Assembly: GCA_913048575.1 (NCBI GenBank)
Contig: CAJWWJ010000005.1
Coordinates: forward strand, 1-33,063
Origin: an uncultured Halieaceae bacterium
GTDB taxonomy: Bacteria; Pseudomonadota; Gammaproteobacteria; Pseudomonadales; Halieaceae
DNA: 33,063 bases
Direction: 5' to 3'
Each line of letters opens with the position of its first letter. The stretch's first letter is position 1. The notes below the pieces were generated by a model. The model had not been told where the DNA came from, did not search any database, and saw only the letters and a program-made list of their open reading frames with translations. This document shows, piece after piece, positions 1,360 through 32,997 of the stretch. The translations under genes and the position numbers were made by a program.

Positions 1360-2955
1360 TCAGCCAAACTGGTTCATGGTGTTATCGTCGCCGGCGGCTT
1401 TGAGCGCTGCATCGCCGGAGAAGTACTCCTTATGGTCGTCGCCCATATCGGAGCCCGCCATGTTCTGATGCCGAACACAGGCGATACCTTGACGAATTTC
1501 TTTTCGCTGAACCCCAGCAACATAGCCCAGCATTCCCGCTTCACCAAAATACTCTTTGGCGAGATTATCGGTCGATAGCGCCGCCGTATGATAAGTCGGC
1601 AACGTAATCAGATGGTGGAAAATACCGGCTTCACGCGCCGCATCTCGCTGGAAGGATTGGATCTGTTGATCCGCCTCTCGCGCCAGATCGGTCTCATCGT
1701 AACGGGCATCCATCAAGGCAGCGCGCTCGTAAGCGGCCACATCTTGGCCTGCCTCAGACCAGGCGTCAAAAACCTGCTGGCGGAAGCTCAAGGTCCAGTT
1801 AAACGAGGGGCTGTTGTTATAAACCAGCTTGGCACTCGGAACCGCTTCCCGAATACGATTGACCATTGATGCGATCTGACCAACGTGAGGCTTCTCCGTT
1901 TCGATCCAGAGTAAATCAGCGCCATTTTGCAAAGAGGTAATGCAGTCGAGCACCACCCGGTCCTCACCAGACCCTTTGCGGAACTGAAACAAACCCGAGG
2001 CAAGACGTGCAGGCCTGAGCAATTTACCGTTCGCTTTGACAACGACATCACCATTGGCAATATCGTCGGCACTGTCGATGTAATCTCCATCGAGGAACCC
2101 GTTGTAAAGATCCCCTAAATCTCCTGGCTCCTGAGTCACTGCAATCTGCTTGGTTAAGCCGGCTCCGAGAGAATCAGTCCGCGCGACGATGACACCGTCT
2201 TCGACACCAAGCTCTAAAAAGGCGTAGCGAATCGCTCGAATCTTTGCGATGAAATCAGCATGGGGAACCGTCACTTTGCCATCTTGGTGGCCGCACTGCT
2301 TTTCATCAGAGACCTGGTTCTCAATCTGGATTGCACAGGCACCGGCTTCAATCATGCTGCGCGCTAGCAGATAAGTTGCCTCCTCGTTGCCGAACCCCGC
2401 ATCGATATCAGCAATGATCGGCACAACGTGAGTTTGGAAAGCGTCGATTTGACTGACGATAGCCTGAGCTTCGACGTCATTACCCGCCTTACGGGCCTTG
2501 TCTAGACCACGAAACAACCCACCCAGCTCACGGGCGTCCGCCTGCCGAAGGAAAGTGTAAAGCTCCTCGATCAATGCAGGCACGGACGTTTTCTCATGCA
2601 TCGACTGATCGGGCAATGGCCCAAATTCGGAACGCAACGCGGCGATCATCCAACCCGACAAGTAAAGGTAGCGCTTATCGGTATTACCAAAGTGCTTCTT
2701 AATCGAGATGAGTTTTTGCTGGCCAATAAAACCGTGCCAGCAGCCGAGGGACTGCGTGTACTGACCAGGATCCTTGTCATAGTCACCCATGTCTTTGCGC
2801 ATGATCGCAGCCGTATAACGGGCGATATCGAGCCCCGTCTGAAAGCGATTTTGAAGTCGCATACGCGCTGCATGCTCGGGGCTGATATCCGACCATCCGG
2901 CGGTCTGACCACAAGTTGATTCAAGCGCCTTAATGGTGTCTGCGTAATTAGACAT
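1360..2955 (-). CDS. aceA: Isocitrate lyase, long Pseudomonas-type form
   Basis: Isocitrate lyase splits isocitrate into glyoxylate and succinate, the first step of the glyoxylate shunt, allowing growth on acetate, fatty acids and other C2-yielding substrates. The product is 531 residues, about 100 longer than the E. coli enzyme and the size typical of the Pseudomonas-type subfamily. The catalytic loop is KQCGH with the cysteine at residue 221, where E. coli has KKCGH. Other family blocks are visible: IADIDAGFGN, GACAIQIENQ and VYNNSPSFNW. The ORF track starts 35 codons upstream, but the ATG at 2955 is preferred because GGAGAG lies just before it and the family N-terminus begins there. Malate synthase is not in the window. 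Transcription is divergent from purE, with its own candidate promoter at 3008-3035. Confidence 0.96.
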   Translation of the reverse strand: MSNYADTIKALESTCGQTAGWSDISPEHAARMRLQNRFQTGLDIARYTAAIMRKDMGDYDKDPGQYTQSLGCWHGFIGQQKLISIKKHFGNTDKRYLYLSGWMIAALRSEFGPLPDQSMHEKTSVPALIEELYTFLRQADARELGGLFRGLDKARKAGNDVEAQAIVSQIDAFQTHVVPIIADIDAGFGNEEATYLLARSMIEAGACAIQIENQVSDEKQCGHQDGKVTVPHADFIAKIRAIRYAFLELGVEDGVIVARTDSLGAGLTKQIAVTQEPGDLGDLYNGFLDGDYIDSADDIANGDVVVKANGKLLRPARLASGLFQFRKGSGEDRVVLDCITSLQNGADLLWIETEKPHVGQIASMVNRIREAVPSAKLVYNNSPSFNWTLSFRQQVFDAWSEAGQDVAAYERAALMDARYDETDLAREADQQIQSFQRDAAREAGIFHHLITLPTYHTAALSTDNLAKEYFGEAGMLGYVAGVQRKEIRQGIACVRHQNMAGSDMGDDHKEYFSGDAALKAAGDDNTMNQFG

Positions 2956-3007
2956 GAAGTCTCTCCGGCTAAGATCACCGCTACCGCAACGGTGAATAAG
3001 GGTGGGG

Positions 3008-3035
3008 AGTTTAGGCACCAGAGTGCCATTTTCAA
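3008..3035 (-). promoter_or_regulatory. Candidate sigma-70 promoter of aceA with an inverted repeat in the spacer
   Basis: On the minus strand TTGAAA (-35, 5 of 6 consensus bases) is separated by 16 nt from TAAACT (-10, 4 of 6). Transcription would start about 45 nt before the aceA ATG. The spacer contains a perfect inverted repeat, GGCAC-TCTG-GTGCC (3014-3027), well placed for a regulator to block or remodel the promoter. The regulator is not identified. Confidence 0.5.
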
Positions 3036-3102
3036 AACAAATAGAAACCATATCTGCCATTCACTGAAAAAATGATCCGCCATGGCCCAGTCCACGCCGC
3101 GC

Positions 3103-3665: not shown

Positions 3666-4780
3666 TGCGTATTGCGATTGTCGGCTGTGGCCAACTGGCG
3701 AGAATGCTGGCGCTTGCGGGTTGGGAAATGGGCCATCACTTCACCTTTTTAGCAGATCCCGGCGAGGGTACACGTTGCGTTGAAGGTCTCGGGCCGGTCC
3801 TCTCCAGCGACCAATACCAGTCTGGCGAAGCGCTCTTTGAAGCATTGGGCCGCCCAGATGTGGTCACAGTGGAGAAGGAGCATGTCGATGTGGCGTTGCT
3901 GGAATCGCTCTCGAACTACTGCCGAGTGGCACCGAGCGCCGACGCCATTCGAATATGCCAGCACCGCGGTCGTGAAAAGACGTTATTGCAATCACTGGAT
4001 ATCGCAACTGCCCCCTTTCACGTGGTGACCGATGCAGCCTCGCTGAGCGAGGCTGTGAACACCTTGGGTTATCCCGCTTTCGTCAAATCATGTGAGCAAG
4101 GTTATGACGGGCAAAATCAGTGGCTGCTGCAGAATACTGATGAACTGGCCGCGCTGGCACTGAAGATGCCAACCCTACCCCCACTGGTTGTAGAGGGCGC
4201 CATCCGTTTTGATCGTGAGCTCTCGTTAATCGTGGCGCGATCTGTGAGTGGCGATACCGCCATGTATCCCTTGACGGAAAATAGACACCGAGAGGGTATC
4301 TTGCTGACCTCAGAGGTGCCTGCAGCCAATATTTCACAGCAGACTCAACAGCAGGCAACCGATATTGCCAACCGACTACTGGATCATTGGTCTTATGTTG
4401 GGGTGCTCTCCATCGAGCTCTTTGACGAAGCTGGCGTACTGCGAGTCAATGAACTGGCACCGAGAGTTCATAACAGTGGGCATTGGTCGCAGGACGCCGG
4501 GGTGACCTCGCAATTTAGCAATCACTTACGCGCGATCACCGATACGCACCCGGGCGGCACGATCCCAGCTGGCTATGCCGGCATGGTCAATTTATTGGGC
4601 AGAGGGGCCGACGCGGCACTGCTACAAGCGAGCGATACCGCCCTGCACTGGTATGACAAATCGATTCGAGGCCGCCGAAAAGTCGGGCATATCAACCTGC
4701 AGTCTCCGGAGCGTGAGCAGCTACAACAGAGGCTTAGCGCGTTGGAAGCCGCTTTGTATCCGGAAGGCGCGCCCCTCTAG
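3665..4780 (+). CDS. purK: N5-carboxyaminoimidazole ribonucleotide synthase
   Basis: PurK uses ATP and bicarbonate to carboxylate AIR to N5-CAIR, which PurE then rearranges. The 371-residue protein is an ATP-grasp enzyme. It opens with [15 protein letters not shown] (preATP-grasp fold), continues with the ATP-binding GYPAFVKSCEQGYDGQNQW segment around residue 140, and has the metal- and phosphate-binding ELAPRVHNSGHWSQ motif near residue 265. The start used here shares its A with the purE TGA stop. The ORF track start is 15 codons upstream inside purE and would add residues foreign to the family. Length is normal. It is the last gene of a two-gene operon facing der. Confidence 0.96.
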   Translation: MRIAIVGCGQLARMLALAGWEMGHHFTFLADPGEGTRCVEGLGPVLSSDQYQSGEALFEALGRPDVVTVEKEHVDVALLESLSNYCRVAPSADAIRICQHRGREKTLLQSLDIATAPFHVVTDAASLSEAVNTLGYPAFVKSCEQGYDGQNQWLLQNTDELAALALKMPTLPPLVVEGAIRFDRELSLIVARSVSGDTAMYPLTENRHREGILLTSEVPAANISQQTQQQATDIANRLLDHWSYVGVLSIELFDEAGVLRVNELAPRVHNSGHWSQDAGVTSQFSNHLRAITDTHPGGTIPAGYAGMVNLLGRGADAALLQASDTALHWYDKSIRGRRKVGHINLQSPEREQLQQRLSALEAALYPEGAPL

Positions 4781-30356: not shown

Positions 30357-31130
30357 CTATTTTTTTGCTGCTCGCTTGCGCAGTGCCGCCAGGCGCTCAC
30401 CCATCTGACTGTAGTCGACGGTTTTAGCGAAGACATTACCTCGCTCGCCCTCTAGCATTAGCGCATCACCCAAGTTTTGTTTTGCACCATCATTCATAAG
30501 CGCCTTCAAAGCGATCACGGCGTTGGCATCGCCGTCGGCAACTTGGGCTGCACTGGCCAGCGTCTCGTCCATTAAGTTTTCTGGGGTGCAAACGCGATTC
30601 ACCAAACCCCAGGCCTCAGCACGATGCGCATCAATAAAATTACCCGCTAAACTCATTTCACGGGCACGGTTGATGCCGATGATTCGAGTCAATTTTTGAG
30701 ACAGGCCCCATCCCGGTAAAATACCCACCCGCGCATGCGTATCGGCAAAACGAGCCTCGGTGCTGGCAAACAAGTAGTCACACGCCAGTGCCAATTCAAA
30801 TCCACCCGTGACCGCTGCGCCGTTGATCGCGCCTATAATCGGTTGAGGACACTGCTCTAATGCGACAACAATAGGTGAGGCTGGGCCCAGCCCCATCCCT
30901 GTTGAGAGCATTTCCGGCTCATCCGATAAAGCCTTTAAATCGACGCCGGCGCAAAAACTGCGGCCCGCCCCAGTGAGGACAATAGCGCGCACCGTCGTCG
31001 AACTGGCAAGCTCAGTAAAGGTGGCCGTAATCGCCTCAGAAAGGGCTCGATTCAGCGCATTATTAGCCTCAGGACGGTTCAGGGTGACCAGTGCGACGCC
31101 CGACCGCTCTTCTACCGTTACAACAGACAT
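30357..31130 (-). CDS. Enoyl-CoA hydratase/isomerase (crotonase) family protein
   Basis: A 257-residue crotonase-fold protein acting on acyl-CoA thioesters. The oxyanion-hole segments FCAGVDLKAL and GAAVTGGFELA are present. Aligned by eye to rat mitochondrial enoyl-CoA hydratase, the first catalytic glutamate is kept (E112 in GGFELALACDY). The second (E164 of rat) is replaced by histidine 132 in ADTHARVGILPGWG. So hydration by the classical two-glutamate mechanism is doubtful, and isomerase, hydrolase or another activity is possible. The start at 31130 is favoured over the track's ATG four codons upstream because GGAG lies 6 nt before it. No partner beta-oxidation genes are adjacent. Confidence 0.9.
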   Translation of the reverse strand: MSVVTVEERSGVALVTLNRPEANNALNRALSEAITATFTELASSTTVRAIVLTGAGRSFCAGVDLKALSDEPEMLSTGMGLGPASPIVVALEQCPQPIIGAINGAAVTGGFELALACDYLFASTEARFADTHARVGILPGWGLSQKLTRIIGINRAREMSLAGNFIDAHRAEAWGLVNRVCTPENLMDETLASAAQVADGDANAVIALKALMNDGAKQNLGDALMLEGERGNVFAKTVDYSQMGERLAALRKRAAKK

Positions 31131-31260
31131 ACTGCTCTCCATGGCGACTCATTGGTCTGCGCGCTTAATAACCCTCTCGGCACAAAAATCAGATACCGTG
31201 CAGCGAGAATAGCGTCATTCACCGAGTAGGCTCATTTAACCAAAGTGCCGACGGCCAAAC

Positions 31261-32328
31261 TCACCAGGCGGGTTGCATACAAACTTGTTCGGGCATGACA
31301 TTGGGCTGAGTCGGCAATAAATATAATCGGGCAAAGGTCAGCCCAAACAGGGCGCCCAAGCCCAGCCGCTTCGCCTTAGCCGCGATACCAGGTTTTTCTT
31401 CCAGCGCGTCGCGAGCCATTTGCAATTCTCGCATTCGCTCGAGCCCAGCGCGGAAACGCGGGTCATCGGTATTCAGTGTCAGTGGGAAAACCTGTCGTGA
31501 AATCTCGGTCGTGATGTCAAAAACTTGATAGTCAAATTCTGTGACATCCATACCAAAGGCCTCATAGAGCTTCGGTCGAGCATGATCTCTGACATACATC
31601 GTCGAGTACACCGCGACCAAAAAGAAACGAATCCAAAGCTTGTTCATGCCTCGCAATAACTTTGGATCCGATCTCATAATGAGGGCGAACGCCTCACCGT
31701 GAGAAAACTCGTCATTGCACCATTCCAGAAACCATTTAAAGATCGGATGGAAGCGCTGTTCTGGATGCCGCTCAAGATGCCGGAAGATGGTGATATAACG
31801 CGCATAGCCAATTTTTTCGGACAAATAGGTGGCGTAGTAAATAAACTTAGGCTTAAAAAAGGTGTACTCCTTCTCGCGCTTCAACACGCCCAAATCGACC
31901 GCCACACCCAGTTTGTTTAACGCTTTATTAATGAAACCCGCATGGCGAGACTCGTCTCTCGCCATGTAGCGCATCAATTTAGCAATATCGGGGTTACTCA
32001 CATTTTTTTCAATTTCTTGGTAGAGCACGCAACCGGAGTATTCAGCCGTAATCGACGATACCAAAAAATCCAGAAATTCCTCTTTGAGTGCTGGATCCGC
32101 TTCTAAAATCGCCGGATCGTACTCATAGTTTTGCTTGAAGTGGCCTCGATTCGTATCGAGTTCGAAAGCGCGCATCATCTGATCCCATTCTGCTCGAACC
32201 GGCGTGACATCGATGTGCTCCATCGCCGGATAGTCCGTGCAGTAAAATCGAGGTGCTAACGCCCTGCCTTCCAAGGCTTGCTGGGTCGTTAGATTGACCG
32301 CAGCGTCATCGTTGATTAACTCACTCAT
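31261..32328 (-). CDS. acsF: Aerobic Mg-protoporphyrin IX monomethyl ester (oxidative) cyclase
   Basis: AcsF is the oxygen-dependent diiron cyclase that closes the fifth ring of bacteriochlorophyll, forming protochlorophyllide. The 355-residue protein shows the diiron ligands: AEYSGCVLYQEIEKN, ARDESRHAGFINKAL (E125, H128) and CNDEFSHGEAFALIMRS (E207, H210). The early RGHFKQNYEYDP segment is also typical of AcsF. The track includes 16 extra residues; the ATG at 32328 follows a clear GGGGG Shine-Dalgarno. The family requires O2, so this is a mark of aerobic phototrophy. No other photosynthesis gene is in the window. The downstream neighbour is a crotonase gene, not puhE or hemA, and the upstream divergent neighbour is a BLUF photoreceptor. 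Confidence 0.95.
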   Translation of the reverse strand: MSELINDDAAVNLTTQQALEGRALAPRFYCTDYPAMEHIDVTPVRAEWDQMMRAFELDTNRGHFKQNYEYDPAILEADPALKEEFLDFLVSSITAEYSGCVLYQEIEKNVSNPDIAKLMRYMARDESRHAGFINKALNKLGVAVDLGVLKREKEYTFFKPKFIYYATYLSEKIGYARYITIFRHLERHPEQRFHPIFKWFLEWCNDEFSHGEAFALIMRSDPKLLRGMNKLWIRFFLVAVYSTMYVRDHARPKLYEAFGMDVTEFDYQVFDITTEISRQVFPLTLNTDDPRFRAGLERMRELQMARDALEEKPGIAAKAKRLGLGALFGLTFARLYLLPTQPNVMPEQVCMQPAW

Positions 32329-32391
32329 CGTATTTCCCCCATCTGTCTTTAACGCCCTCTGCGCGTTATTTAACAAGTTCCCGCAGCAAAG

Positions 32392-32421
32392 TGTCTAACT
32401 TTTTTACCACATATATGTCAA
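32392..32421 (-). promoter_or_regulatory. Candidate promoter of acsF
   Basis: On the minus strand a perfect TTGACA (-35, 32416-32421) is 18 nt from TAGACA (-10, 32392-32397, 3 of 6). Transcription would begin about 55 nt before the acsF ATG. The poor -10 and long spacer suggest a regulated promoter. The -35 lies within the left arm of the PpsR-like site. Confidence 0.5.
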
Positions 32422-32433
32422 TTTTATTTGACT
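32416..32433. promoter_or_regulatory. PpsR/CrtJ-like operator between acsF and the BLUF gene
   Basis: TGTCAATTTTATTTGACT fits the PpsR/CrtJ consensus TGT-N12-ACA in its extended form TGTC-N10-GACA, with one mismatch in the last base. PpsR sites in photosynthesis promoters commonly overlap the -35 box. Here the left arm contains the acsF -35 (TTGACA, minus) and the right arm contains TTGACT, a possible -35 for the BLUF gene (plus). A second TGT...ACA pair at 32392-32411 has a 14-nt spacer and is a weaker candidate. No ppsR gene is in the window. Confidence 0.55.
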
Positions 32434-32467
32434 ATTGGCCCGGTAGCAAGCAATCTGCGCGAAAGGA

Positions 32468-32494
32468 GTCACCGCGTTGCGGCGACCTAACGCG
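32468..32494 (+). other. Alternative hairpins in the BLUF gene leader
   Basis: GTCACCGC-GTT-GCGGCGAC (32468-32486, one A-C mismatch) and CGCGTT-N10-AACGCG (32473-32494) are mutually exclusive stems just before the BLUF start. A strong AAAGGAG (32462-32468) lies upstream of both and is not spaced for the BLUF ATG. Alternative folding is visible; a regulatory role is inference. Confidence 0.35.
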
Positions 32495-32511
32495 TCACCA
32501 GCAGGGGCACC

Positions 32512-32997
32512 ATGTCAAATAATATGGCCCAAGAAGACTCCCACACAGAGTATAGCGGCTCGGAAGCACCTGAAAATGCTGTCTTCCATCTGTGCTACGT
32601 CAGCACAGAAACCGAACACTTCACTCAGGAAGATCTCGTTGCGCTGCTGGGCGTCGCACGTACCGCCAATACCGAGCACGACGTGACGGGTTTACTCCTC
32701 TATCGAGAAGGCTCTTTTTACCAACTGCTCGAGGGTAAACAGACAGCGGTAAACCATATTTTTGAAGTGATCAAACAAGATCCTCGACACAAAGATGTGC
32801 GCATCTTGTTCAGCGGCGAAACGGAAACCAGAGAATTCTCAGACTGGCGAATGGGGTTTTTGAATCTAGATGGCGTGAACCCGGAAGCGCTTGCAGGCTT
32901 TTCAAATTTTCTAGAGGTGGACGCACACCCGCAGGAATTTCTCGAAGAGTTAAGCCGTGGAAAGCGCCTCGCGCTGATGTTCAGGACGATGCTTTAG
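32512..32997 (+). CDS. Short BLUF-domain blue-light photoreceptor
   Basis: BLUF domains bind FAD and respond to blue light by rearranging hydrogen bonds around the flavin. The 161-residue protein has the domain at about residues 24-118 with every photocycle residue present: Y29 (LCYVS), N53 (ARTANTEHDVTG), Q71 (FYQLLEG), W112 and M114 (SDWRMGF). Each is exactly 8 higher than its counterpart in AppA (Y21, N45, Q63, W104, M106). A short C-terminal tail of about 45 residues follows, with no output enzyme domain. It is therefore a stand-alone sensor that probably works by protein-protein contact. AGGGG lies 4 nt before the ATG. It is divergent from acsF, sharing the 183-bp regulatory gap with the PpsR-like site. 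Confidence 0.95.
   Translation: MSNNMAQEDSHTEYSGSEAPENAVFHLCYVSTETEHFTQEDLVALLGVARTANTEHDVTGLLLYREGSFYQLLEGKQTAVNHIFEVIKQDPRHKDVRILFSGETETREFSDWRMGFLNLDGVNPEALAGFSNFLEVDAHPQEFLEELSRGKRLALMFRTML

Follow-up and report, generated by a model that had tools for sequence, protein, structure and literature searches.

A conserved tandem PpsR-type operator between acsF and a short BLUF photoreceptor gene in a Luminiphilus-like member of the Halieaceae

The stretch of DNA analysed here (the window, 33,063 nucleotides) is the entire contig C5 of a 202-contig, 1.98 Mb assembly that is 84% complete. The assembly represents a Luminiphilus-like Halieaceae MAG of the OM60/NOR5 clade with a photosynthesis gene cluster (PGC), a true ppsR and both pufL and pufM, and its closest named relatives are uncultured Luminiphilus (AcsF identity 95-99%). 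The acsF gene for the oxygen-dependent Mg-protoporphyrin IX monomethyl ester cyclase (355 aa; TIGR02029, 512.4 bits against a cut-off of 192.5) lies on the minus strand at 31261..32328, and downstream of it is an enoyl-CoA hydratase gene (30357..31142, minus strand), which is the neighbour of acsF in the lineage that carries the acsF-BLUF pair outside the PGC. On the plus strand at 32512..32997 is the gene for a short single-domain BLUF protein of 161 aa without an effector domain (PF04940, E 3.5e-30, residues 25-115 only). The acsF ATG at 32328 (minus) and the BLUF ATG at 32512 (plus) enclose a gap of 183 bases (32329-32511), and the divergent pair and gap length described in the initial annotation were thus borne out, with the gene identities given by TIGR02029 and PF04940.

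The gap holds two PpsR-type palindromes in tandem, neither of which is assigned to a strand. Operator B (TGTCAATTTTATTTGACT, 32416..32433) is the better half and reads TGTC-N10-GACT, one mismatch from the extended palindrome TGTC-N10-GACA, just as had been claimed; its outer TGT...ACA appears as TGT...ACT, and the GACT end is fixed across the window's lineage. The earlier description of a single palindrome was correct as to this site and missed its weaker partner, operator A (TGTCTAACTTTTTTACCA, 32392..32409), which has two mismatches and is degenerate in the window (TGTC...ACCA) as well as in a few relatives (L055, L061, L062 and L069). The operators are separated by 6 nt, with a start-to-start distance of 24. 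With a matrix made from 31 sites in the PGC promoters of three relatives, from which the acsF gap was left out, operator B scored 20.7 bits, the best value in the 33 kb, and operator A 11.5 bits. The two together have 32.2 bits, against about 10 for the highest-scoring unrelated pair of the window, and the gap ranks first by 22 bits. A perfect TGTC-N10-GACA also occurs at 2937-2954, where it is part of the coding region of the gene at 1360-3060; having 13.6 bits and no tandem partner, it was set aside as probably due to chance.

Chance could likewise be invoked for a palindrome in an AT-rich gap, as 126 of 5000 dinucleotide-shuffled copies of the gap (about 2.5%) contained a site with no more than one mismatch and 718 such sites occur in the genome; the bare motif is by itself weak evidence. 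However, just one of the 5000 shuffled copies reached the matrix score of the single site, and none that of the tandem pair (0/5000). When the gap was aligned among relatives, as the initial annotation had proposed, the palindrome proved to be kept: 19 successive columns (32416-32434), including all 18 positions of operator B, are invariant in the 20 nearest genomes, while the other gap columns average 57% (0/10000 permutations). The two palindromes together have at most 4 mismatches out of 16 in 47/57 gaps, which come from several genera and two further families. Coincidence is already contradicted by this conservation across genera and would appear to be a negligible explanation of the site. 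Perfect copies of the palindrome are present in four relatives (L028, L029, L070 and L074), a different family of the same order has a near-perfect pair (TGTCAATTGCAATTGACA, L029), and operator A matches better in relatives, for example TGTCAGTCTTTTTTAACA (L021). The AcsF of the genome that carries this last copy (G306) is 87% identical to that of the window, yet the genome is assigned to a different family of that order; either it is misbinned or misplaced, or the gene was transferred.

The genes on the two sides of the operator are inherited together. Among 140 Halieaceae genomes acsF was found in 58, and BLUF is divergent from it in 55/55 loci where both genes are fully visible, three of these being from other families of the order, at a distance of 133-312 bases between tblastn anchors. 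The seeming exceptions (G451, G456, G462 and G468) are all contig ends, and in G484 acsF is cut by the contig start and the BLUF gene is on a different contig.

A ppsR homologue, whose absence from the genome would have told against the initial annotation, is present at C12:17744-19054 (TIGR02040, 384.7 bits against a curated cut-off of 275.4), where it adjoins bchF and bchG, and its product has PAS domains and a Fis-type HTH. Like sites had been expected at other photosynthesis genes, and tandem PpsR-type sites were indeed determined in the host PGC at crtI, crtE/crtC, bchF/ppsR, bchG and bchI. These pairs are separated by 7-8 nt (start-to-start 25-26), as compared to 6 nt in the acsF-BLUF gap of the window and 6-8 nt in those of relatives. 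We scanned 435 kb, comprising 145 kb of own contigs (the window and seven stretches of other contigs) and 290 kb from the contigs of three relatives around acsF, and pairs of at least 15 bits were confined to crtI, bchI, an ATP-grasp gene near the PGC, crtE/crtC, bchF/ppsR, bchG, a second bchF upstream region (C158) and the acsF-BLUF gaps. The pair at the ATP-grasp gene (C7, 11301-11343, L010; 19.2 bits) is directly upstream of it, and this gene is possibly an unrecognised PpsR target.

The second bchF region belongs to another bchF-bchN-bchB-bchH stretch (C158 1-4864, L018), which resembles the C12 copy without being identical to it and has its own bchF operator at 4647; two related strains seem to be mixed in the assembly. 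The host also carries a second, unlinked BLUF gene (C96:3200-4800, L163) near-identical to that of the genome G445 (L167), the AcsF of the two genomes being only 86% identical, which hints at strain mixing again or at recent exchange.

The gap thus resembles the PpsR/CrtJ tandem operators of purple-bacterial bch, crt and puc promoters and of Congregibacter litoralis KT71, a member of the same clade (PMC2654016), in its palindrome, tandem layout, promoter overlap, the presence of ppsR in the genome and recurrence of the motif at other photosynthesis promoters. The palindromes of this operator type read TGT-N12-ACA, or TGTCA-N8-TGACA in extended form. The gap differs from them in spacing (6 nt against 7-8 nt) and in lying, in this lineage, away from the PGC between acsF and BLUF. 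In KT71, 15 PpsR sites have been reported, 12 of them tandem (PMC2654016), and tandem TGT-N12-ACA sites bound by PpsR overlap promoters and repress them (PMC10890935). PpsR would by analogy bind and repress at the gap.

The TGT-N12-ACA outline is also that of TyrR boxes, and a regulator of TyrR/PhhR type might therefore use the site instead. Against this, no TyrR-type HTH above the cut-off was found in the genome (84% complete), and the high-scoring tandem pairs are confined to photosynthesis genes and the acsF-BLUF gap in the stretches scanned; we consider such a regulator very improbable and PpsR the likely ligand.

The position of the pair relative to the PGC varies among relatives. In four single-contig relatives acsF-BLUF lies within the PGC, about 4 kb from ppsR. 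In the window's lineage acsF is followed by the enoyl-CoA hydratase gene and not by the PGC, and in three relatives of this lineage the contigs showed none of nine other PGC genes sought over 116, 79 and 95 kb on which acsF lies. The pair seems to have left the PGC as one unit, operator included, a direction suggested by linkage to the PGC being the more widespread state. That the operator is invariant even outside the PGC argues for selection on the operator itself as against hitch-hiking with the cluster.

The arms of the palindrome had been described as overlapping a TTGACA -35 box for acsF and a TTGACT -35 box for BLUF. Both hexamers are there (minus 32421-32416 and plus 32428-32433, respectively), but the -35 role was not upheld, as they come with the palindrome (TGTCAA...TTGACA), have no -10 box 16-18 nt off and were both absent from a promoter scan. 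As such hexamers are automatic with any TTGACA-type PpsR palindrome, they are not independent promoter evidence. The simple scan instead returned TTGCTA-17-TAAAAT at 32449..32421 on the minus strand. Its putative -10 box TAAAAT (32421..32426, minus) is within operator B, with at least 4/6 matches to TATAAT in the same register in 49/57 gaps and an exact TATAAT in 4. The putative -35 box TTGCTA (32444..32449, minus) has its CAAG core beyond operator B; this CAAG block is located to the right of operator B at 13 nt in 48/57 gaps and at 12 nt in 4, and seven of the nine columns at 32444-32452 are invariant in 20 genomes. Other relatives have TTGAAT/TATAAT with a spacer of 16. The conserved acsF promoter is in all probability TTGNNN-17-TANNNT with its -10 box inside operator B, such that PpsR bound to B would cover the -10 box and PpsR bound to A the region just past the start. 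Repression of acsF by PpsR would then take place in the same redox and light conditions as that of other photosynthesis genes.

On the BLUF side, no convincing sigma-70 promoter was found in the window, which makes repression of the BLUF gene less certain than that of acsF. The operator may serve acsF alone, with BLUF a passive divergent neighbour outside PpsR control and a sensor for another partner: the readable conserved promoter elements point to acsF, and short BLUFs in other systems have unrelated targets, PixE and Fur among them (PMC5955987). One group of relatives, however, has a TATACT box directly adjoining operator B towards the BLUF gene, a BLUF of this type occurs in the family only with acsF, and it stays divergent from acsF where the pair sits outside the PGC. 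Taken together we regard control of acsF alone as unlikely. We favour, with a probability of about 0.8, a PpsR operator acting on acsF at the least and probably also on the BLUF gene, whose transcription likewise leads away from this short gap. The earlier proposal of one PpsR-like factor acting on both genes is sustained to this extent: the PpsR-type operator, ppsR and the conserved divergent pair strongly support a putative shared control, and its BLUF half is probable.

The BLUF protein has the features of a photoreceptor, namely a PF04940 domain with the Tyr/Asn/Gln/Trp/Met photocycle residues. Y29, N53, Q71, W112 and M114 are invariant in 15 aligned acsF-linked homologues, and we take them to be equivalent to Y21, N45, Q63, W104 and M106 of AppA. 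The AppA-type architecture (BLUF followed by a C-terminal SCHIC domain) was looked for, and within the 161 aa the BLUF domain alone was found. Close homologues (E < 1e-30) occur only beside acsF, apart from G484 and the contig-edge cases, and genomes without acsF have distant BLUF proteins only. The acsF-linked BLUFs form one group separate from the other BLUFs of the family, with a support of 90/80 that is not decisive. They carry a family-specific C-terminal tail (..EFLEELSRGKRLALMFR, 32929..32985, plus strand) which was not seen in the unlinked BLUFs of the family and whose conservation around LSRGKRLALMFR equals that of the BLUF core (mean top-residue frequency 0.70 vs 0.64 in 23 representatives of <75% identity). 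Being conserved as the core and absent from unlinked BLUFs, the tail suggests a conserved partner, and LSRGKRLALMFR is a candidate partner-binding segment. Structure prediction was confident for the BLUF core and gave the tail a pLDDT of about 33-51, and it adds nothing on the tail.

PpsR itself may be that partner. The BLUF protein would most likely exert its feedback by touching PpsR directly, and the conserved tail is perhaps the part involved. Its occurrence with acsF only and its conserved tail lend this idea new support. The SCHIC domain is AppA's other PpsR-contacting part, and its absence here counts against this reading. It is not needed in principle, as short BLUFs that bind and antagonise a repressor are known (BlsA-Fur, PMC5955987). 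The step from BLUF to PpsR is on balance a tentative proposal, somewhat short of even odds. The fuller model, in which a short BLUF with a clade-specific tail conveys the blue-light signal directly to PpsR of the Halieaceae, does the job of AppA without SCHIC and closes a loop through the operator it has in common with acsF, is possible at slightly longer odds.

The sign of such a loop would depend on the active state of the sensor. The AppA of Rhodobacter lifts repression by PpsR in darkness or low light (PMC5955987); in OM60/NOR5 bacteria blue light lowers pigment synthesis, and no appA-like gene was found in Congregibacter litoralis, the model of the clade (PMC2654016, PMC3666943). If the dark state relieves PpsR, the loop would be a double-negative switch, and if the light state strengthens PpsR, it would be a damping loop. 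The loss of pigment in blue light would fit a dark antirepressor with its switch-like double-negative loop, and a light-state corepressor would fit equally.

Three known systems help to place the locus. With AppA-PpsR of Rhodobacter sphaeroides it shares a BLUF sensor and PpsR on the same pathway and the BLUF photocycle residues; unlike AppA, the BLUF here is 161 aa without SCHIC, its gene lies beside acsF under a PpsR-type operator, and its interaction with PpsR is putative. LdaP of Dinoroseobacter shibae, a blue-light LOV antirepressor of PpsR (PMC10890935), would be alike, if the loop is real, in joining a blue-light receptor to PpsR in an aerobic phototroph; it has a LOV in place of a BLUF fold and was tested experimentally, and the role of the BLUF here is putative. 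BlsA of Acinetobacter, a short BLUF that antagonises Fur (PMC5955987), is the mechanistic precedent, a BLUF that lacks an effector domain and targets a transcription repressor; its partner Fur and its pathway differ from the system here.

Several elements have been published for the clade, namely ppsR and tandem PpsR sites in the PGC (PMC2654016), acsF near BLUF (PMC3176799) and, for Congregibacter in 2009, the proposal that a single-domain BLUF works via PpsR (PMC2654016). What is new here is the operator in the acsF-BLUF gap with its strict conservation, the KT71 equivalent of which may already be among the sites of PMC2654016. Also new are the survival of the operator outside the PGC, the reading of the acsF promoter, the joint inheritance of acsF and BLUF, and the tail of the BLUF protein.

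Aerobic phototrophs of the OM60/NOR5 clade are widespread in the sea. The question of their blue-light response is narrowed to a single pair of proteins and a single piece of DNA by a 42-base operator linking pigment synthesis with a BLUF that was found only with acsF and bears a conserved tail, and this strict pairing of operator and sensor offers a concrete test of blue-light pigment shut-off in bacteria without AppA.
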